This document shows, piece by piece, positions 6,334 through 13,844 of a stretch of DNA of 13,844 nt. A program made the translations under genes and the position numbers. Below the pieces are notes generated by a model that worked only from the letters and a program-made list of their open reading frames with translations, was not told the DNA's origin and ran no database searches. The DNA comes from Desulfobacteraceae bacterium. Its GTDB lineage: Bacteria; Desulfobacterota; Desulfobacteria; Desulfobacterales; ETH-SRB1. Numbering within the stretch: the stretch's first letter is position 1; the number at the start of each line of letters is the position of its first letter. The stretch is taken from assembly GCA_030638305.1 (NCBI GenBank), contig DAOWEW010000004.1, positions 1 to 13,844 on the forward strand, given 5' to 3'.

Positions 6334-7310
6334 AGAACAAGAAAATTAACCTTGCCCTGATATGCACATCAGGCGGCCATTTTGAACAAATGACAAATCT
6401 ATCTGACTTCTATAATCGTTATGATCATTTTTGGATTACAAACAAAAACAATCAGACGCTCAGCACGCTAAAAAACGAGAAGAAATATTTTGTCAGCTCA
6501 GCACATTTTAAAAAACCATGGACATATTTATTTCAGGTTCCCCTGTTTATAAAAGTATTTGCCAAAGAAAGGCCAACCTGCATTCTCAGCACAGGTTCCG
6601 GCAGGACAGCTTTTGTTCCATTTCTCCTTGCAAAAATATTGCGGATTAAGTTTATCTATATTGATACCTTTTCCCGGGTGAATGGTTATTCAAAGTTCGG
6701 CACGTTTTTGCTAAAAATCGGGCACAGGTTTCTCACTCAATGGAAGGATGATGAAAACCCAAAGGCTGTATACATTGGGCCTGTATTTAAAAAAGCAAAT
6801 TCCGGTCTCAAAAATCCTGATTCAGACTATATATTTATTACCCTGGGAACCAGAGGAGAGGCTTTCACGAGGCTGATATTTGCTGTTGAAACACTGAAAA
6901 GGCAAGGCGCGATAAAGGAAAGAGTTGTTGTCCAGGCAGGGCATACAAAATATACCTCAAAACATCTTGAATTGTTTGATTTTTGTACCCCCAAAAAGAT
7001 TGATGATTTGATCATGAACGCCAAATACGTAATTACCCAGGAAAGTGCAGGTATTGGAACAATATGCCTAAAACATAAAACCAAATTTCTGGTAATGCCG
7101 AGGGACTACAAGTATGGAGAGTTACCGGCTGCAAGCGATATGAAAGAGGATCTGCATTTAAAACTGGAAGAAATGGGTTATACGAAAGTGGTTAAAAACG
7201 ATTCGGAATTGCAAAACACAATAAGGCAAATAGATAATTTAAAAACCGGTTTTGATTTTGATAATGAACTTGCGATTACTACGTTAAATGATATTTTAGC
7301 CGCGGACTGA
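6330..7310 (+). CDS. fused Alg14-Alg13-like glycosyltransferase (PssD/PssE-like)
   Basis: A 326-residue protein joining two halves that are separate genes in many bacteria. Residues 1-155 are Alg14/PssD-like: TSGGH (13-17), STGSGR (87-92) and DTFSRV (112-117). Residues 165-310 are Alg13/PssE-like, of the GT28 donor-binding type: TLGTRGEAF (171-179), QESAG (237-241) and MPRDYKYGE. In the usual form the last two blocks read HGGAG and PR...GE; here the His is replaced by Glu. Such pairs add the second sugar (GlcA, GlcNAc or Gal type) to a lipid-linked repeat unit at the inner membrane. Start GTG overlaps the dehydrogenase stop; GGGGG lies just upstream. The last four residues (LAAD) are encoded by the left arm of the palindromic repeat, so the natural C-terminus was probably altered. 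Confidence 0.8.
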   Translation: MKNKKINLALICTSGGHFEQMTNLSDFYNRYDHFWITNKNNQTLSTLKNEKKYFVSSAHFKKPWTYLFQVPLFIKVFAKERPTCILSTGSGRTAFVPFLLAKILRIKFIYIDTFSRVNGYSKFGTFLLKIGHRFLTQWKDDENPKAVYIGPVFKKANSGLKNPDSDYIFITLGTRGEAFTRLIFAVETLKRQGAIKERVVVQAGHTKYTSKHLELFDFCTPKKIDDLIMNAKYVITQESAGIGTICLKHKTKFLVMPRDYKYGELPAASDMKEDLHLKLEEMGYTKVVKNDSELQNTIRQIDNLKTGFDFDNELAITTLNDILAAD

Positions 7311-7359
7311 CGCGGACAAACGCAGACTTTAGAAAGTATCCGCGTAAGTCTGCAGCTAA
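7296..7359. repeat. palindromic element, copy A (64 bp)
   Basis: Left arm TTAGCCGCGGAC (7296-7307) and right arm GTCTGCAGCTAA (7348-7359) are inverted repeats (10 of 12 match); pairing extends inward (GACGCGGA with TCCGCGTAAGTC). It overlaps the last codons and stop of the preceding glycosyltransferase gene and ends 18 bp before the next start. As RNA it would form a long hairpin, so it may act as a 3' stabiliser or attenuator. Confidence 0.85.
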
Positions 7360-7377
7360 TTTCAAAGGAAAAATTGG

Positions 7378-7968
7378 TTGATATATGAGAACGTAAAGAT
7401 AGGCACAGGGGCAATCATAGAAGACTATTGTATTATAGGCATTCCCCCTCTGGGTCAACAAGAGGGGGATTTTGAGACGGTTATTGGCCGCAATGCCTGC
7501 ATACGCTCTCACACTGTCATATATGCCGGCAACCGGATCGGAAATAGTTTTGCAACCGGAAACAAGGCAAATATAAGAGAACTTAATACAATCGGCAATA
7601 ATGTCAGTATTGGCACGCTAACTACAGTTGAACACCATATCAGCATCGGAGACAATGTCCGAATTCATAGCCAGGCCTTTATATCTGAATATTCGGTTCT
7701 TGAGGATCATGCCTGGATCGGCCCCAATGTTGTTCTGACAAACGCCCGCTATCCATTATCTTTGGATGCAAAAGAAACTCTCATTGGCCCTACAATTAAG
7801 AAAGGAGCAAAAATTGGTGCGAACAGTACCATATTGCCGGGTTTAACCATCGGTGAAAATGCATTTGTCGGGGCAGGTTCCGTAGTTGTCAAAAATGTTC
7901 CTGATGGCGCAGTTGTAGTTGGCAATCCCGCTAAAATAATAAAAAACATTACAGAATTGCCTTATTAA
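7378..7968 (+). CDS. wlbB: hexapeptide-repeat N-acetyltransferase (WlbB/WbpD-like)
   Basis: A 196-residue left-handed beta-helix protein built of [LIV]-G-x4 hexapeptides, for example [41 protein letters not shown]. It closes with the common [12 protein letters not shown] end. His86 and His87 (TVEHHISIG) are candidates for the catalytic base. The fold uses acetyl-CoA as donor and works as a trimer. Next to a WlbA-like dehydrogenase and a WlbC-like aminotransferase, the likely job is acetylation of the C3 amino group of the UDP-sugar. The segment at residues 25-70 is longer than in the simplest WbpD proteins, so specificity may differ. Start is TTG with AAAGGA 7 bp upstream; the nearby ATG is out of frame. 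Repeat elements flank it on both sides. Confidence 0.75.
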
Positions 7969-7970
7969 AT

Positions 7971-8106
7971 TTAGCCGCGGACACTCGCCGACAAACGCAG
8001 ACTTTATTGTTGTATTATAAATTTTCAGATAAGGGGAAATATCAAGAAAGTATCTGCGTGAGTCCGCGTCCGTCCGCGGCTAAATTTATTTTCAGTCTGC
8101 AGCTAA
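7971..8106. repeat. palindromic element, copy B, plus an extra right arm
   Basis: Left arm TTAGCCGCGGAC (7971-7982) starts 2 bp after the acetyltransferase stop. The right arm GTCCGCGGCTAA (8072-8083) is a perfect 12-bp inverted match. The centre (about 8005-8047) is AT-rich and differs from other copies. A second right arm GTCTGCAGCTAA follows at 8095-8106, just before the Shine-Dalgarno of the next gene. Confidence 0.9.
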
Positions 8107-8127
8107 ACTTATTTAAGGAGAACAAAA

Positions 8128-9231
8128 ATGAACATTCCATTTGTTGATTTGAAAAGCCAGTATGAAAATATAAAAAACGAAATTGATCAAGCCATTGCCG
8201 AAGTAATCTCCAAAACCGCATTTATCGGTGGTCCCTTTGCCAAAACTTTTGAAACAAACTTCGCAAAATTTTGTAACGTCAAACATTGTGTAGGAGTTGG
8301 AAACGGCACCGATGCCCTGTTTATTGCCCTTAAAGCCCTTGGAATTGGAAAGGGTGATGAAGTCATAACTGCTGCAAACAGCTTCATTGCAACCTCAGAA
8401 GCAATAACAATGACCGGTGCAAAAGTAGTATTTGTGGATATAAATCCGCAAACTTATAATATTGATGTCACAAAACTGGAAGAATATCTAAAAACAAGCC
8501 TCCAGGCTAAACCCAAGGCCGTAATCCCAGTTCATCTTTATGGACAGCCGGCTGACATGGATCCAATTTTAGACCTTGCAAAAAAATATAATCTAAAAAT
8601 AGTCGAAGACGCTGCACAGGCTCATGGATCAGTCTACAAAGGACGGCAAATCGGTTCAATCGGTGATATGGCATGTTTCAGCTTTTATCCTGGAAAAAAC
8701 CTGGGAGCCTATGGAGATGCGGGCGCTATTGTTACAAATGATGAAGGCTTGGCGATAAAAGCAAGAATGATTGCCAACCATGGCAGGATTGAGAAATACA
8801 ACCATGAAATTGAAGGTGTAAACAGCCGACTGGATGGCATTCAGGCCGCAATTCTTGATGTTAAATTAAGACATCTTCCTGAGTGGACGGAAAGTAGAAG
8901 AAAAAATGCTTATCTGTACAATAAATATTTGAAAGATACGGATCTTGTCACACCAATTGAAATCAACGATGTCAAAGCAGTTTATCATCTTTATGTGGTC
9001 AGGGTAAAAAAAGAGTTACGCCAGAAACTTCAGGACAACTTAAAGTCAAAAGGCATAGCCTCTGGTATCCATTATCCCATTACCCTGCCAAACTTAAAAG
9101 CATACAAATATCTAATTCACAGTGAAACTGATTTTCCGGAAGCAACCAGAGCGTCTCAAGAAATTCTTTCGTTACCAATGTTCCCTGAGTTAACCGAATC
9201 ACAAATAGCATACATCTCTAAGGAAATTTAG
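8128..9231 (+). CDS. wlbC: PLP-dependent sugar aminotransferase (DegT/DnrJ/EryC1, WlbC/WbpE-like)
   Basis: A 367-residue fold type I aminotransferase. Seen motifs are FVDLKSQY at the start, GVGNGTDAL (phosphate binding), PVHLYGQPADM, EDAAQAHG (Asp161, which contacts the PLP ring nitrogen), SFYPGKNLGAYGDAG (Lys190, Schiff-base lysine) and GVNSRLDGIQAAIL. The family moves an amino group from glutamate to a 3-keto or 4-keto UDP-sugar. With the WlbA-like enzyme the expected substrate is UDP-3-keto-GlcNAc-uronic acid. The ATG has a strong AAGGAG 8-9 bp upstream, the best ribosome site in the cluster. The stop codon TAG lies inside the left arm of a palindromic repeat, and the protein ends at ISKEI, slightly shorter than many relatives, suggesting loss of a few residues. 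Confidence 0.88.
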   Translation: MNIPFVDLKSQYENIKNEIDQAIAEVISKTAFIGGPFAKTFETNFAKFCNVKHCVGVGNGTDALFIALKALGIGKGDEVITAANSFIATSEAITMTGAKVVFVDINPQTYNIDVTKLEEYLKTSLQAKPKAVIPVHLYGQPADMDPILDLAKKYNLKIVEDAAQAHGSVYKGRQIGSIGDMACFSFYPGKNLGAYGDAGAIVTNDEGLAIKARMIANHGRIEKYNHEIEGVNSRLDGIQAAILDVKLRHLPEWTESRRKNAYLYNKYLKDTDLVTPIEINDVKAVYHLYVVRVKKELRQKLQDNLKSKGIASGIHYPITLPNLKAYKYLIHSETDFPEATRASQEILSLPMFPELTESQIAYISKEI

Positions 9232-9339
9232 CCGCGGACACCCGCAGACAAGCGCAGACTTTTTTTTAACCCAAAGGGCACGATAATTTTTTCTCTGCCA
9301 GGTCGGCAGAGAAAAGTGTCCGCGTAAGTCCGCGGCTAA
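9228..9339. repeat. palindromic element, copy C (112 bp, complete)
   Basis: Left arm TTAGCCGCGGAC (9228-9239) and right arm GTCCGCGGCTAA (9328-9339) are perfect inverted repeats. The aminotransferase stop TAG (9229-9231) is part of the left arm. The centre carries an inner hairpin, TTTCTCTGCC (9290-9299) with GGCAGAGAAA (9305-9314), loop AGGTC, preceded by CCCAAAGGGCACGATAA. Confidence 0.92.
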
Positions 9340-9356
9340 TTAAAAAATTAAAAAAC

Positions 9357-10229
9357 ATGAAAACTTATCTCAAATATGTCCTAATAACTCCTGCACGTAA
9401 TGAGGAAGCCTATATAGAGAAAACAATTCAATCCGTTATCTCACAAACCGTGTTACCCGAAAAATGGGTGATTGTCAGTGATGGCTCTACTGACCGAACA
9501 GATGAGATAGTAAAACAATATATAGTTGAAAACACCTGGATTGAATTAATACGGATGCCTGAGCATAGAGATCGTACATTTGCAGCCAAGGTACATTGTT
9601 TTAATGCCGGCTATGAAAAGCTTACAGATGTCAAATATGGTATTATCGGGAATCTTGATGCAGACATTTCTTTTGAAAAAAATTATTTTGAATTTCTTCT
9701 TGGCAAATTTGCTGAGATTCCTGAACTCGGCGTAGGCGGAACCCCATTTGTTGAAGGTTCTTCTCATTATGATTACAAATTTACTAATATTGAGCATGTA
9801 TCAGGCGCTTGCCAGTTATTCAGGCGTGAATGCTTTGAAGCAATCGGAGGATACATTCCAATAAAAGGCGGTGGTATTGACTGGACTGCCGTTACAACAG
9901 CAAGAATGAAAGGCTGGAAGACAAAAACATTTACAGAAAAAGTATGCTTTCATCACAAAAAAATGGGAACCGGCAACACCAGTGCCCTGATGACATCCTT
10001 TAGGCAAGGATACAAGGATTATTTCCTGGGTGGTCACCCTTTATGGCAACTTTTTAGAACTGTTTACCAGATGTCAAAAAAGCCTTATATTATAGGAAGT
10101 CTTCTATTGTTTTTTGGATATAATTGGGCATATATAAGCAGAGTTGAAAGACCTGTCTCACAGGAACTTATGGAATTCCATAGAAAAGAACAAATGCAGA
10201 GGCTGAAACAGCGTTTTTTAAAGTTGTGA
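9357..10229 (+). CDS. GT2-family glycosyltransferase
   Basis: A 290-residue GT-A fold transferase. The N-terminus reads LITPARNEEAYIEKTIQSV; SDGSTDRTDEIV holds the nucleotide-binding Asp; NLDADISF is the DxD-type metal site; FRRECFEAIGGY and GGGIDWTAV (Asp near the end) are the acceptor/base region of GT2 enzymes. A hydrophobic stretch near 245-262 (KPYIIGSLLLFFGYNWAYI) may tether it to the membrane. It probably adds a sugar to the lipid-linked repeat unit made by this cluster. No Shine-Dalgarno is visible: the 17 bp after the preceding repeat arm are almost only A and T, so the element may have displaced the original leader, or initiation relies on an unstructured AT-rich site. Confidence 0.88.
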   Translation: MKTYLKYVLITPARNEEAYIEKTIQSVISQTVLPEKWVIVSDGSTDRTDEIVKQYIVENTWIELIRMPEHRDRTFAAKVHCFNAGYEKLTDVKYGIIGNLDADISFEKNYFEFLLGKFAEIPELGVGGTPFVEGSSHYDYKFTNIEHVSGACQLFRRECFEAIGGYIPIKGGGIDWTAVTTARMKGWKTKTFTEKVCFHHKKMGTGNTSALMTSFRQGYKDYFLGGHPLWQLFRTVYQMSKKPYIIGSLLLFFGYNWAYISRVERPVSQELMEFHRKEQMQRLKQRFLKL

Positions 10230-10247
10230 AAAAGGGAAAAAGGAAAT

Positions 10248-10425
10248 TTAGCCGCGGATTTACGCGGACAAGCGCGGACTTTATTTTTACCCAAAGGGCA
10301 TGATAGTTTTTTCTCTGCCAGCAAACCGCAACATATCTATAATAAAATTAATTAGTTAGGTGGCTTCATCCAATGTAATCCAGGGGGCGGAGCTATCATC
10401 TGCGTCCGTCTGCGTGTATCCGCGG
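10248..10425. repeat. palindromic element, copy D, with an inserted 79-bp block
   Basis: The left arm TTAGCCGCGGAT begins 18 bp after the GT2 stop. It is followed by the CCCAAAGGGCATGATAG block and CTCTGCCA, after which the inner hairpin is replaced by a block at 10327-10405 that recurs at 12202-12280 with one mismatch (78 of 79). The right side has GTCTGCG units but its GGCTAA end is degraded (ATCCGCGGTG). It ends about 50 bp before an antitoxin gene. Confidence 0.85.
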
Positions 10426-10473
10426 TGTTCCACCCAATTCGCAACCCAATAAACCCAATCATTGGAAGATATG

Positions 10474-10746
10474 ATGTCTACTGAAGTATGCACTTTTAAC
10501 ATTCCTGATTCTTTAGCGCGGGAGCTGGAAACAGCCAACCAGAAATTCTTAGTTGAGCTATTGGAGCGCGGGCTCCAAGCTTTAAAAATCGAACGTGCCT
10601 TGGAGCAGTATGCTCGCGGTGGTATCTCATTTGGTGCAGCCGCTCATCAAGTGGGCACTTCCCAATCAGAGCTGGCCAATCACGCTTACGCGCGAGGCAT
10701 GGAGCCACCCTTTAGCGCTGAAACATTAGCAGAAGAGCTCAGTTGA
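10474..10746 (+). CDS. antitoxin, UPF0175-like, of a DUF3368/PIN pair
   Basis: A 90-residue protein. The region FNIPDSLARELETANQKFLVELLERGLQALKIERALEQY is followed by GGISFGAAAHQVGTSQSELAN, a helix-turn-helix-like stretch characteristic of UPF0175 proteins, which are usually encoded just before DUF3368 PIN-like toxins. ATG 10474 is chosen because GGAAG ends 5 bp upstream; ATG 10471 and a TTG at 10462 are alternatives. It would bind and silence the toxin and may repress its own operon. Its stop TGA overlaps the TTG start of the toxin gene (TTGA). GC content appears higher than in the polysaccharide genes, consistent with separate acquisition. Confidence 0.75.
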   Translation: MSTEVCTFNIPDSLARELETANQKFLVELLERGLQALKIERALEQYARGGISFGAAAHQVGTSQSELANHAYARGMEPPFSAETLAEELS

Positions 10747-11264
10747 GCGCCGGGCCAGTCGTCCTTTGCAACGCAGGTCCACTGATCTCACTCGGTAAGC
10801 TCAACCGACTGGAACTTCTCTCCGAGCTATATGATGAAGTTCAGATTCCACACACTGTATACGATGAGGTTGTCACATATGGACTGGCAAAGGGTACTCC
10901 GGATGCCCTAACTGTGCGTTTGTTCTGGCAACATCAAAAGTGGCCAGTGGTGGATGTACCACCAGATGTTTTATCCGCATATATACCATCTGTGATTCTG
11001 GATCCTGGTGAAAGAGCAGTAGTGGCGCTGGCACAAACAATGATGCATCCTTTGTTACTTTTAGACGATGAGGTTGCCCGCGGTGAGGCCCGCCGGTTGA
11101 ACCTGCAATTGCGCGGCACATTAGGTATTATGGTTCAAGCTTACCGTGAACATATGTTAACTTTAGCCCAAATTGAGTTATTAATGAGAGAAATCTCTGC
11201 CAGACGAGATATTTGGATCAGTACAAAGTTGTGCGAACAAGTGTTGGCTTCGTTGCAAGGATAA
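10743..11264 (+). CDS. DUF3368 PIN-like ribonuclease toxin
   Basis: A 173-residue protein of the DUF3368 type. The opening CNAGPLISLGKL has Asn10 where VapC has Asp, which is normal for DUF3368. Then follow VYDEVV (Glu42), LDPGERAVVALA (Asp87, Glu90), LLLLDDEVARGEARRLN (Asp108, Asp109) and RGTLGIMVQAY. The acidic residues fit a metal-dependent RNase site. Start TTG overlaps the antitoxin stop; AGAAGAG upstream could serve as ribosome site. The family is thought to act as toxin of a type II pair, although activity is shown for few members. A stray GGCTAA follows the stop (11269-11274). Confidence 0.8.
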   Translation: MSAGPVVLCNAGPLISLGKLNRLELLSELYDEVQIPHTVYDEVVTYGLAKGTPDALTVRLFWQHQKWPVVDVPPDVLSAYIPSVILDPGERAVVALAQTMMHPLLLLDDEVARGEARRLNLQLRGTLGIMVQAYREHMLTLAQIELLMREISARRDIWISTKLCEQVLASLQG

Positions 11265-11288
11265 CAGCGGCTAAAAACAAACAATTAT

Positions 11289-11312
11289 TTGCATAGGCAT
11301 CTCCATATGCGA
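11289..11312. promoter_or_regulatory. imperfect inverted repeat upstream of the HicB-like gene, possible operator
   Basis: TTGCATA (11289-11295) and TATGCGA (11306-11312) match as inverted arms in 6 of 7 positions and are separated by 10 bp. They lie 29 bp before the start codon. HicB-type antitoxins often bind inverted repeats in their own promoter. This is suggestive only. Confidence 0.3.
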
Positions 11313-11340
11313 AGAAAAGGATTTTTAGGAGGAAATAATT

Positions 11341-11688
11341 ATGAAGCCAATAAGGGCAGAAAAATGCTATATTTCCAATAAAGTATCGCCATTACATATC
11401 CTTTTAACTGAGGAAGATTCTGTTATAGTCATTAGGTGTCTTGACTTCAGCATCTCAAGTCATGGAGATACTATTGAAGAAGCAAAACAGTCTATGAACA
11501 GTATATTAATGGATTATTTGAAATATGCTATTGAAAATAACAATCTGGACAACTTGTTTGATTCTGATCTGAAAGAATATTGGGATATATATCAAAAGTT
11601 AGCAATTGAAGCTGAAAAACATATCTTCCAGGCAAATTTTGACAAGATTAAGGGGGACATTATAAGCAAAGGATTAACCTATGCTTAA
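11341..11688 (+). CDS. HicB-like antitoxin
   Basis: A 115-residue protein. The section IRCLDFSISSHGDTIEEAKQS followed by hydrophobic helix MNSILMDYLKYAI has the shape of the HicB partial RNase H fold (strand, G-x-T-x-E-E-A helix). The C-terminal half is helical and charged without a clear helix-turn-helix. ATG 11341 is preceded by a strong AGGAGG at about 11328. A HicA-like reading frame starts at 11681, overlapping its end by 8 bp, which supports the pairing, here in HicB-then-HicA order. As the toxin frame is broken, the antitoxin may be an orphan. Confidence 0.65.
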   Translation: MKPIRAEKCYISNKVSPLHILLTEEDSVIVIRCLDFSISSHGDTIEEAKQSMNSILMDYLKYAIENNNLDNLFDSDLKEYWDIYQKLAIEAEKHIFQANFDKIKGDIISKGLTYA

Positions 11689-11883
11689 GCCAATGAAGTT
11701 GAGAAAGGTGATCAAGATCCTGTCCGATTATGGCATACGATTTGATTACACAAGCGGAGGTAAACATACTGGAAAGTTTTATAATGGTCCCAAATCTGTG
11801 TGCCTACTTGGTGAAGTTAATTCGTCCACGTTCCTTATGCCTTAAAGGGGCTTATTAAGAAGTTTGATCTTCCCAAAAAGTAA
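11681..11883 (+). pseudogene. frameshifted HicA-like toxin gene
   Basis: From ATG 11681 the frame reads MLKPMKLRKVIKILSDYGIR followed by FDYTSGGKHTGKFYNGPKS, a plausible HicA start with the G-x-H motif that carries the catalytic histidine, and ends at TAA 11843-11845. A second frame picks up at about 11824-11827 as HVPYALKGLIKKFDLPKK and stops at 11881-11883. This is the kind of C-terminal helix expected for the family. A 1- or 2-base indel near 11820-11830 explains both halves. HicA proteins are small dsRBD-like mRNA interferases; this copy would be inactive unless frameshifting occurs. Overlap with the HicB-like gene fixes the pairing. Confidence 0.6.
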
Positions 11884-12118
11884 ACAAAGTACACATGTTC
11901 TTAAATGCGATGACATATAATGCCTATAAAGAAAGGTTGCAAGGATTGAGGCGATGGCGCGACCTTTGAGTCTCCAAGCTTTTTATCTGTGAGCTATCAG
12001 ATTTTTGCGTTTCCAAGCCTTTTTATCCAGCTATCGTCCGCGCGTGTTTGTTTACCCCCGTTAAATTTCGAAGAACCATTTATCTGGGGCGGCTAATTTA
12101 AAATAAATTTAAAAAAGA
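11884..12118. other. spacer with repeat fragments, no gene
   Basis: Nothing with coding support. A 24-codon frame at 11895-11969 is too short to call. Heptamers CTGTGAG/CTATCAG lie at 11987-12000, CCAAGC(C/T)TTTTTATC occurs twice (about 11974 and 12014), and the 34-bp segment seen at 987-1020 recurs at 12057-12090 in front of GGCTAA. Confidence 0.6.
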
Positions 12119-12121
12119 AAA

Positions 12122-12314
12122 TTTAGCCGCGGACACCCGCAGATAAGCGCAGACCTTATTTTTGCCTGAAGGGCATGATAGTTTTTTCTTTGCAAGCCAA
12201 TCGCAACATATCTATAATAAAATTAATTAGTTAAGTGGCTTCATCCAATGTAATCCAGGGGGCGGAGCTATCATCTGCGTTTGTCCGCGTAAGTCCGCGT
12301 GCGTCTGCGGCTAA
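12122..12314. repeat. palindromic element, copy E, with the same inserted 79-bp block
   Basis: Left arm TTAGCCGCGGAC starts at about 12123, followed by the GGGCATGATAG block and the 79-bp block (12202-12280), 78 of 79 identical to 10327-10405. The right side keeps GTCTGCGGCTAA at about 12303-12314. Copies D and E each lie upstream of an antitoxin/DUF3368 pair. Confidence 0.88.
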
Positions 12315-12386
12315 TTAATATCCTGTTAATTCTGCTTGCCCTCCTCTGGAAGGTCTAATAAAAACAGAAACTTATAAACTAAGGAA

Positions 12387-12425
12387 CGAAAGTACTCCCG
12401 CGTCCCGAAAGTGCTCGAAAGTACT
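12387..12425. promoter_or_regulatory. three direct repeats CGAAAGTACT before an antitoxin gene, possible operator
   Basis: CGAAAGTACT at 12387-12396, CGAAAGTGCT at 12406-12415 and CGAAAGTACT at 12416-12425. The core AGTACT is itself palindromic. The last copy ends immediately before the AGGAG ribosome site, so a bound protein would block initiation. Autoregulation by the antitoxin is the natural guess, but no promoter boxes could be assigned. Confidence 0.45.
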
Positions 12426-12439
12426 TAGGAGATACGACA

Positions 12440-12697
12440 ATGAATGAACCTATTCTGTCCCGTGAGTTGGCTTTTGTAGCTGCTCAACGCGGGCTTGACG
12501 AGACAACGGTGCTTGCCCAAGCCGTTCGTGAGGGGATATGTGTGCTCTACCGTGACACTATAATTGATGCCTATCTGTCTGGTAGCATTTCACGCGAGCA
12601 TGCGCTGAAGGAACTTGGTACAGAAGCATTGGAAAAGGTTGAATATCAGCGTGATGCTCTGGAGGGCGACGTTGCCTGGGGTTTCGGAAATGCTTGA
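12440..12697 (+). CDS. putative antitoxin of a DUF3368/PIN pair
   Basis: An 85-residue protein preceded by AGGAG about 8 bp before the ATG. The first half (LSRELAFVAAQRGLDETTVLAQAVREGI) is helical; the second (IIDAYLSGSISREHALKELG) resembles the UPF0175 segment Y..G.IS...A....G, though less closely than the gene at 10474. It overlaps the downstream DUF3368-like gene by 8 bp. Antitoxin function is inferred from size, order and overlap. It and its toxin are too diverged from the 10474-11264 pair to be a recent duplication, although the repeat in front of both pairs is nearly identical. Confidence 0.65.
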   Translation: MNEPILSRELAFVAAQRGLDETTVLAQAVREGICVLYRDTIIDAYLSGSISREHALKELGTEALEKVEYQRDALEGDVAWGFGNA

Positions 12698-13202
12698 AGC
12701 TATCAGTGACACCGGTCCCATCTTGCATTTACACGAAATCGGTAAATTGTTCACACTGAATGTTTTTGAGCGTCTGTATATACCCAGGTTAGTTGCTGAG
12801 GAACTGGGTCGTTACAGTCTGGACGCTGAAACTATTGATTTGAGTTCATCTATATTGATAGTACCAATCAAGAGGGAACAGCGTGACAGAGTGCTCGGAG
12901 AAATCGGTCAACTACCCATTCATCCAGCTGATATTGAAGTTTTTATCCTGGCGCATGAGGACGGCTTCTCAAAACCGATATTAACGGATGACATGGCCTT
13001 GAGGCGAGAGCTCGAATTTCGTGGCGCACTGGTGATTGGTTCAGTAGGGTTGCTTGTTCGCGCATATAACAAGGCTTTGATGGCACGCGAAGATCTTGAT
13101 CACGCGATTGATGCCCTGTTTGATGAGAGTACACTGCATTTGAGTTCGGCTTTTCGAGGGTATGTTCGCAAATTAATTAATGAGTTAGGCAAAGTATGCT
13201 AA
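12690..13202 (+). CDS. DUF3368 PIN-like ribonuclease toxin (second locus)
   Basis: A 170-residue protein with SDTGPILHLHEIG (Asp7), LVAEELGRYSL (Glu37/38), HPADIEVFILA (Asp81, Glu83), LTDDMALRRELEFRG (Asp100, Asp101) and IGSVGLLVRAY, the DUF3368/PIN order of acidic residues. Unlike the gene at 10743, it keeps the first Asp. The frame is open upstream to 12615, but that part lies in the antitoxin gene in another frame. ATG 12690 is preferred because it begins directly at the first beta strand and gives the normal 8-bp overlap. Probably a metal-dependent RNase toxin; target unknown. Confidence 0.78.
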   Translation: MLEAISDTGPILHLHEIGKLFTLNVFERLYIPRLVAEELGRYSLDAETIDLSSSILIVPIKREQRDRVLGEIGQLPIHPADIEVFILAHEDGFSKPILTDDMALRRELEFRGALVIGSVGLLVRAYNKALMAREDLDHAIDALFDESTLHLSSAFRGYVRKLINELGKVC

Positions 13203-13208
13203 AAAATT

Positions 13209-13240
13209 GTCTGCGTAAGTCCGCGTGTGTCCGAGGCTAA
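13209..13240. repeat. right-arm fragment of the palindromic element
   Basis: GTCTGCG, GTCCGCG and GTCCGAG units end in GGCTAA at 13240. It starts 6 bp after the toxin stop and ends 7 bp before the start of the truncated nuclease-like gene; the TAA at 13242 (just after GGCTAA) is the in-frame stop that bounds that gene. Confidence 0.75.
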
Positions 13241-13247
13241 ATAAAAA

Positions 13248-13844
13248 ATGACAATCTATAAATTGCTGCGTTATACAACAGACCTGATGGAAGCCCATCC
13301 CCAGGCACTGGTAATACCGACGGTTTTATTTACTGATCGCACAAAATGGCGCAAAGGTGTTCTACGAAAGCTGGAAACAAGATTAAACGACCGATTGTTT
13401 CTTCATTTCGAATATATATTTTTCAAACTGTTTGATTTTAACACCCGAGATTATTACAATATAAACAATCCTGTGGTTAAAATATTATTGCCGAAAATGA
13501 ATTATAAAAAGGATGAACGAATAGAGGTAATAAGGCATGCATACTCAGGATTGTTTCAACTTGCATCCCGTATGCTTTTTGATAAATATGTCGATTTTAT
13601 AGATGTGTATGCGCAAATAAGTGAACAAGAACAGAAAAGCCTATATCATGAAATAATTCAGCATAAGGAGACTGCCATGTTAGCACAATATATTAGAGAT
13701 AAAGGAATGCAGCAGGGAATGCAGCAGGGGATAATTCAAACTACAAAAGAAAATATCATAGAGGCTCTTGAATTACGTTTTGGGAAAATTTTACCTGAAA
13801 TCATTGATAGAATAAATCAAACGAATGACCCCACAAAGTTAAAA
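13248..13844 (+). pseudogene. 5'-truncated Rpn/PD-(D/E)XK nuclease-like gene, open at the right edge
   Basis: The 199-codon frame has no stop to the end of the window. It starts at MTIYKLLRYTTDLMEAHPQA, LVIPTVLFTDRTKWRKGV, which matches the middle of Rpn-type proteins (the M..R.L.Y and IP.VL segments). It ends in the typical GMQQGMQQGIIQ linker and helix (IIEALELRFGKILPEII) of these proteins. Rpn proteins (recombination-promoting nucleases, PD-(D/E)XK superfamily, related to Transposase_31) normally have about 80-100 residues before this point that hold the catalytic acidic residues. Here that part is missing and a repeat arm takes its place. No good Shine-Dalgarno is present. I infer an inactive remnant; a short family member is the alternative. 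Confidence 0.6.
13704..13727. repeat. 12-bp tandem duplication coding for GMQQ twice
   Basis: GGAATGCAGCAG is present twice in a row in frame, giving GMQQGMQQG. Rpn-like proteins often have variable numbers of such units, so slippage in a linker is likely. Confidence 0.8.

Follow-up and report, generated by a model that had tools for sequence, protein, structure and literature searches.

GxxExxY nuclease genes between inverted iterated ends as the probable source of palindromic intergenic elements in a Desulfobacteraceae bacterium

The stretch of DNA analysed here (the window: 13,844 nucleotides, positions 1 to 13,844 of contig DAOWEW010000004.1 of a Desulfobacteraceae bacterium, assembly GCA_030638305.1) contains a family of palindromic elements, several of which adjoin the 3' ends of consecutive genes. 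These elements are probably non-autonomous and derived by internal deletion from very small mobile elements that carry a single gene, coding for a member of the GxxExxY family (TIGR04256/PF13366). We favor this reading because of the shared architecture of the short and gene-bearing elements, the covariation of their terminal arms with the GxxExxY protein, the remnants of the GxxExxY gene within the short copies, and the presence or absence of elements at orthologous gene junctions. The GxxExxY family seems to have been previously unrecognized as a component of mobile elements.

Five complete elements are found in the window, at 7296-7359, 7971-8083, 9228-9339, 10248-10425, and 12123-12314 (64, 113, 112, 178, and 192 bp, respectively), the last of which shares 88% identity with the fourth over 188 nt. 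Each arm spans ~32 bp and comprises TTAGC followed by three CGCRGAC-NNN iterons with a 10-bp period, with the inverse at the other end, i.e., the terminal inverted repeats expected of miniature inverted-repeat transposable elements (MITEs). In the shortest element, the left arm reads as TTAGC followed by three iterons of the CGCGGAC/CGCAGAC type. An earlier sequence-only reading had described 12-bp arms, which are the outer portion of these longer arms, and had listed four elements; their starts (7296, 7971, 9228, and 10248) and their distances from the neighboring stop codons are confirmed, to which the fifth element and several right-arm pieces have to be added. The arms exceed chance expectation, as TTAGCCGCGGAC with at most two mismatches has 16 matches in the window against a mean of 0.49 and a maximum of 3 in 200 dinucleotide shuffles. 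The right arms that end at 7359 and 10425 deviate from this pattern, reading GTCTGCAGCTAA with no CTAA, and a further right-arm fragment, again GTCTGCAGCTAA, matches the arm pattern on the minus strand at 8095-8106. No Rfam family matches the window above its gathering score.

The genes ending at 7310, 7968, 9231, and 10229 match, respectively, the Alg14-like, hexapeptide transferase, DegT aminotransferase, and family-2 glycosyltransferase families. As described earlier, the element at 7296 codes for L-A-A-D-stop at the end of its upstream gene (TGA, 7308-7310), and the stop of the aminotransferase gene (TAG, 9229-9231) lies inside the TTAG of the element at 9228. The element at 7971 begins 2 bp past the acetyltransferase stop (TAA, 7966-7968) and that at 10248 begins 18 bp past the glycosyltransferase stop (TGA, 10227-10229). 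Thus, two copies in the window supply stop codons, one through the TTAG with which the element starts and the other through a TGA that follows its first iteron; going by the sequence, TTAG reads as the element's own end.

Pieces of a GxxExxY gene are found in four of the window copies, which accordingly share both their ends and internal sequence with a gene-bearing element, as is typical of MITEs. A TBLASTN search of the window with ~340 GxxExxY proteins recovered the 3' end of such an element on the plus strand at 1062-1148, which reads NLPKGHDSFFSARSAEESVRVRLRPSAAK in a single frame through a hairpin (1087-1113) and the right arm (1116-1147), and matches the C-terminus of the protein P0004 (alignment 1008-1145, E = 1.3e-8 for the window alone, the best of the ~340 queries). 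Shorter C-terminal tails are seen, likewise on the plus strand, at 9270-9335 (PKGHDNFFSARSAEKSVRVSPR, crossing the hairpin and right arm), 10287-10316 (LPKGHDSFFS), and 12162-12194 (LPEGHDSFFFA); no tail was detected with these queries in the copies at 7296 and 7971. Given that orientation can be read only from the center of an element, the uniform orientation claimed earlier stands for the copies at 9228 and 10248, together with those at 1062 and 12123, and lacks such a basis for those at 7296 and 7971. At the site behind the glycosyltransferase gene that is syntenic with the element at 10248, the related genome G003 (locus L065) has a complete GxxExxY gene, whose stop codon falls in the right arm. 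Ahead of this gene stands a deleted copy in which the two arms, the beginning of the reading frame, and the LPEGHD tail are still present. The full and deleted copies at one site present the pattern expected from internal deletion.

The subterminal hairpin is read at 9289-9315 of the plus strand as TTTTCTCTGCC-AGGTC-GGCAGAGAAAA. The C-terminal tail could be read over this hairpin in 19 of 221 GxxExxY proteins, all 19 related to each other and compared at the protein level only. The residues encoded by the codons predicted to pair are Ala/Ala in 10, Val/Thr in eight, and Thr/Val in one, with no mixed combinations. Because the paired residues are never mixed, this suggests that a nucleic-acid hairpin before the right arm may be under selection.

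A pattern scan of GTDB contigs recovered seven loci, six of them titled Deltaproteobacteria, Desulfobacteraceae, or Desulfobacterales and one Gemmatimonadetes. All seven of their genomes (G001-G007) contain the 12-base arm pattern, with 19, 28, and 14 occurrences in G002, G004, and G007 against two, three, and none of the reversed control; across the order, CGCRGAC arms with at most one mismatch occur in 75 of 389 genomes versus three with the reversed control. The same seven genomes all code for GxxExxY proteins scoring above the family cut-off, as against none of 14 control genomes; G007 alone accounts for 20 matches (fragments included). More widely, such proteins occur in 32 of the 58 genomes searched in the order and in 27 of the 81 searched in the phylum of the Gemmatimonadetes genome. 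Family membership is clear: the GxxExxY protein at locus L057 of G007 scores 147 bits against TIGR04256 (curated cut-off 35), with the stop codon of its gene lying within a different iterated arm, and the protein P0001 scores 150 bits against PF13366 (cut-off 22).

The flanks of GxxExxY genes carry inverted iterated ends with many distinct unit sequences (CACGAATGA, CACTAATCT, CACGAAG, CGCAAAGA, ACAGGATT, CCGCGGACGAG, and others). The best repeat lag is 8, 9, or 10 in 48 of 51 such arms, and the repeat signal exceeds the 95th percentile of the arm's own shuffles in 27 of the 51. We aligned the 260 bp upstream of each gene with the reverse complement of the 260 bp downstream (cut-off score ≥13.5) for 100 of 116 GxxExxY domains, namely those near full length with 120 bp of flanks, from 56 genomes. 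Inverted ends were recovered at 66 of these 100 genes (45 of 67 in the Desulfobacterota set and 21 of 33 in the Gemmatimonadetes set), in contrast to 242 of 9,684 mismatched flank pairs drawn from different genomes and 7 of 212 other genes of the same loci. A full element consists of a left arm, a gene for a protein of ~125 residues, in the window's branch a subterminal hairpin, and the inverted right arm, in all ~450-600 bp.

Structure prediction points to a core fold of the Cas4/lambda-type exonuclease kind for the GxxExxY protein, with conserved D..ExK..QxxxY residues. Sequence searches gave no convincing relative of solved structure. The family is broad: at least 7,975 candidates passed E ≤ 0.001 among the 7,999 scored in one search, and at least 7,998, all of those scored, passed in a second; Planctomycetes and Chloroflexota are sources among the matches listed, and plasmid records come from Bacteroidota, Fusobacteriota, Spirochaetota, Gemmatimonadota, and Alphaproteobacteria. 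Two of eight plasmid loci have ends above the cut-off (Bernardetia, 18.0; Bacteroides finegoldii, 22.5). The B. finegoldii plasmid element (L373), which has CACAGAG-type iterons, immediately follows radA; Bacteroides is a culturable genus. A phage or viral origin was considered and set aside, as the arm and center patterns have no exact match in viral_contigs and one GxxExxY protein has no TBLASTN match in phages.

The arms come in dialects that follow the protein. Adding 21 genes from 22 newly named loci and omitting eight repeat loci gave a set of 121 genes, 82 of them with arms, among which arm similarity rises with protein identity (Mantel r = 0.697, reached by 0 of 2,000 permutations). 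Flanking sequence outside the arms stays near background up to 70% protein identity (mean 9.1 vs 8.1) and rises to 11.4 above it, because several of the loci are orthologous. Since such vertically inherited loci inflated this first result, the test was repeated with one locus per flank-sharing group (60 loci), giving r = 0.52 with, again, 0 of 2,000 permutations reaching it. The mean arm score is 15.5 for proteins with 60-70% identity (28 pairs) and 6.9 for those below 40% (1,015 pairs). Relatives of the G003 protein with ~62% identity or more are present in 26 genomes. Scored arms of the CRCAGAC type, the dialect of the window, were read in 18 of these, and by hand count the CGCRGAC pattern occurs in 15 of the same 26 versus 60 of 363 others, the counts to which a Fisher test was applied.

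Full elements are polymorphic at orthologous sites, as seen at two junctions, whose genes we take from our own reading to include Qrc-like and UDP-glucose dehydrogenase genes. At the first, defined by the two conserved genes flanking L133 and compared in 29 genomes (one-flank and duplicate loci omitted), the genes are 5-44 bp apart in 17 genomes. Full GxxExxY genes are found in G021, G160, and G035; G308 has an initial portion of such a gene, and in G334 there are iterated inverted arms but no gene; seven other genomes have spacers of 95-460 bp without GxxExxY. The dialect in G035 differs from that in G021 and G160, and in G021 the arm directly follows the TGA, with two gene-less copies then in tandem. 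At the second junction (the L235 locus, 15 of 30 loci examined), G172, G300, G325, and G190 have a GxxExxY element; the distance between fixed points close to the gene ends is 15 bp in G281, 31 bp in G204, and 65 bp in G272; and G309 and G007 have short elements of the CCACGAAG dialect. The element of G172 recurs in G030 (L377, contig 32), where an element of a different dialect interrupts it and the intervening sequence is lost. Such nesting of an element within an element, with deletion of the gene interior, is one route to short copies. The remaining five spacers are 73-153 bp, with one-sided CCACGAAG iterons in G038. Together with the gene remnants in the window copies, this presence and absence at orthologous junctions supports the earlier suggestion of a non-autonomous, MITE-like mobile repeat.

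Closer to the window, L057 (contig 160 of G007) is syntenic with 7379-13414, with ~81-91% identity over the matched stretches, and all six shared sites that were compared differ. At the site of the 113-bp element (7971), L057 carries a small gene and a ParE-like toxin gene enclosed by a left and a right arm; at 9228, its aminotransferase ortholog is approximately five codons longer and another repeat family occupies the site. A two-gene block is common to L066 and L057, the homology starting at GGCTAA, which is the arm end. A second repeat family, TTAGACAGGATT...AATCCTGTCTAA (L057 5640-5990; L064 6520), likewise supplies stop codons, and in L084 it flanks a GxxExxY gene with a score of 13.0, just below the 13.5 cut-off.

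In 53 of 82 loci, namely those with a codirectional upstream open reading frame of at least 100 codons, the left arm of the full element starts within 25 bp of the upstream stop in 24 cases and contains the stop in four, with some of these loci being orthologous. By a lenient measure, the median distance from the right arm to the next possible start is 27 bp. The elements therefore mostly fill junctions. In raw counts without a genome background, neighbors are codirectional in 78 of 105 cases upstream and 80 of 113 downstream. The earlier idea of insertion at TTAG or stop sites fits 28 of the 53 full elements and fails for most short copies, only 2 of 25 arms in G004 and 1 of 13 in G007 being within 25 bp of a stop; on this ground we dropped the idea of strict targeting of TTAG or stop codons. 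Among arms with a called neighbor, 17 of 21 in G004 and 6 of 12 in G007 face a gene 3' end.

We propose that the nuclease would recognize the iterons of its own dialect and cleave or process both the element and the target DNA, perhaps at hairpins, with host repair completing the integration, often in junctions just behind a stop codon and at times at the cost of target sequence. Mobilization in trans, or recombination between arms, would account for the short copies and those with gene cassettes. Catalysis of movement by the nuclease itself is what we infer. A wider proposal, in our judgment just as apt to be wrong as right, is that GxxExxY elements constitute a new class of transposable elements with one Cas4-like PD-(D/E)XK nuclease and no transposase or recombinase, among the smallest autonomous ones at ~450-600 bp; that the nuclease reads lineage-specific dialects of iterated ends, with integration by cleavage, end processing, and host repair; and that they account for many iterated intergenic repeats (CCACAGAG, CCACGAAG, CCGCAGAT, and similar ones) in several bacterial phyla.

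The movement might instead depend on a conventional transposase (Y1/RAYT, where RAYT is the tyrosine transposase associated with repetitive extragenic palindromic [REP] sequences, or DDE) acting in trans on ends of the REP or MITE type, with GxxExxY as a frequent passenger. Y1_Tnp genes are indeed present in all ten genomes searched (83 matches, fragments included), and toxin-antitoxin pairs are also found between or beside arms of this kind. Thirty Y1_Tnp loci were fetched from these genomes, of which 23 were testable (the other seven include the only one of G166), and 15 of the 23 have inverted ends of their own. However, none of the 23 has CRCNGAC arms, which GxxExxY genes do have, and the 14 ends printed are of another type (DDE families were not searched); a RAYT partner is thus not supported. 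Moreover, a passenger is not expected to covary with the arms, and the observed covariation of arm and GxxExxY sequences counts against that role, leaving this account unlikely. Still less probable is that the arms have no enzyme of their own and spread solely by homologous recombination and gene conversion among repeats already present. This would explain the different cassettes between similar arms at one site in the window and L057, and the break in homology at GGCTAA in L066 and L057, but neither the elements at junctions where most relatives have no arm nor the arm-protein covariation across genomes.

The least probable of the accounts considered is that the arms are selected operators, terminators, or mRNA 3' hairpins, with GxxExxY being a resident regulator or defense nuclease. 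The inverted pairs have strong predicted hairpins (computed without a shuffle control), the elements are positioned behind stop codons, and the residues over the subterminal hairpin change in pairs. Against this, orthologous junctions differ in whether they contain a whole element, one element is located inside another, and short copies contain pieces of the nuclease gene; a selected 3' RNA hairpin, the other option raised by the sequence-only reading, may be a side effect and leaves these remnants unexplained. As to defense, PADLOC assigned no defense family to the GxxExxY protein of L057, the one protein scanned, and we reject that role.

Several observations weigh against the derivation of the window elements from mobile GxxExxY elements or against movement by the nuclease. 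The window copies contain remnants of the gene only. With the 12-base pattern alone, only G002, G004, and G007 of the seven genomes clearly exceed the reversed control, G003 (three vs four) and G005 (two vs three) being no clearer than it. The alignment test found no ends at 34 of 100 GxxExxY genes, and six of eight plasmid loci fall below the cut-off (scores 9.0-12.0; in some, inspection by eye shows weak or one-sided iterons). Some GxxExxY loci are orthologous and vertically inherited, and the arm-rich genomes G153, G166, and G004 have no match to the G003 GxxExxY protein at E ≤ 1e-20; G004 has a GxxExxY gene of another dialect. The spacings at the first junction derive from simple start-codon calls and the longest are underestimates. 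No clear target-site duplication was seen in the junction sequences read (window/L057 and both junctions), and no excision product was resolved. A lone PD-(D/E)XK nuclease is not known to act as a transposase, and no published support was found for GxxExxY catalyzing movement.

Among known systems, the nearest to the GxxExxY elements is REP/RAYT, which is related to IS200/IS605. Its published description (PMC2817692) presents RAYT genes as flanked by inverted REPs that coevolve with the gene and whose abundance follows it. The similarities are a single gene between inverted repeats, dispersed gene-less copies, coevolution of repeat and protein, and a repeat abundance linked to the gene. However, the gene between the repeats belongs to PF13366 and its product is a PD-(D/E)XK nuclease, whereas RAYT is a Y1 (HUH) tyrosine transposase, and the ends are three iterons, plus the hairpin in the window's branch, rather than the GT(A/G)G head and palindrome of REPs. 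As both enzyme and ends differ, the GxxExxY elements are not members of the REP/RAYT group. They also resemble the Correia and RUP MITEs (IS630 derivatives), which are short, palindromic, intergenic, and gene-less, with ends common to a larger gene-bearing element and an apparent origin by internal deletion; the partner here is GxxExxY rather than a DDE transposase, and no clear target duplication was seen. The likeness to Cas4 and lambda-type exonucleases is confined to the predicted core fold and the D..ExK..QxxxY residues, while GxxExxY is the sole gene of its element, with no room between the ends for a Cas1 or recombinase gene. In the literature searched, with many subscription papers and bioRxiv outside it, GxxExxY/PF13366 has no apparent link to repeats or mobility, and no account of these repeats was found among the matches listed.

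Other parts of the window carry right-arm-only or interrupted copies, all on the plus strand. In addition to the copy at 1062, right arms stand alone at 345-366, 918-939, 2143-2174 (three iterons), and 13209-13240, and are interrupted at 971-1026 and 12036-12096. In the latter two, a 34-bp CCCC...GGGG palindrome (986-1019 and 12056-12089; also in L057 and L066) splits the GTCTG of the right arm from CGGCTAA and looks like a separate nested repeat. A 70-bp sequence, GCAACATATCTATAATAAAATTAATTAGTTA...GGCGGAGCTATC, is found within the fourth and fifth elements (10327-10397 and 12202-12272) and is dispersed in G007, G208, G030, G256, and G172 with 77-84% identity. Heptamer arrays of the CTATCAG/CTATCAC and TTCGATG types (150-345 and 1980-2260) adjoin right arms and recur in G007. 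Candidate toxin-antitoxin genes of the PIN-domain and UPF0175/DUF3368-like kinds lie near arms at 1431-1901, 10462-11264, and 12440-13202, with weak family matches at the first two and none at the third, which was judged by eye; the lone right arm at 13209 is 3' of the second candidate pair, and cassette capture is possible. The Y1_Tnp genes (L311-L333) have inverted ends of their own, many starting with GGGGTC or GGGGAC.

If these proposals hold, a function could be assigned to the GxxExxY family, with its thousands of members, and a source to a class of intergenic repeats that has so far lacked an explanation. The natural pairs of arm and protein in many dialects would lend themselves to studies of DNA recognition by a small nuclease and, if the nuclease alone moves DNA, this would represent a new mode of transposition.

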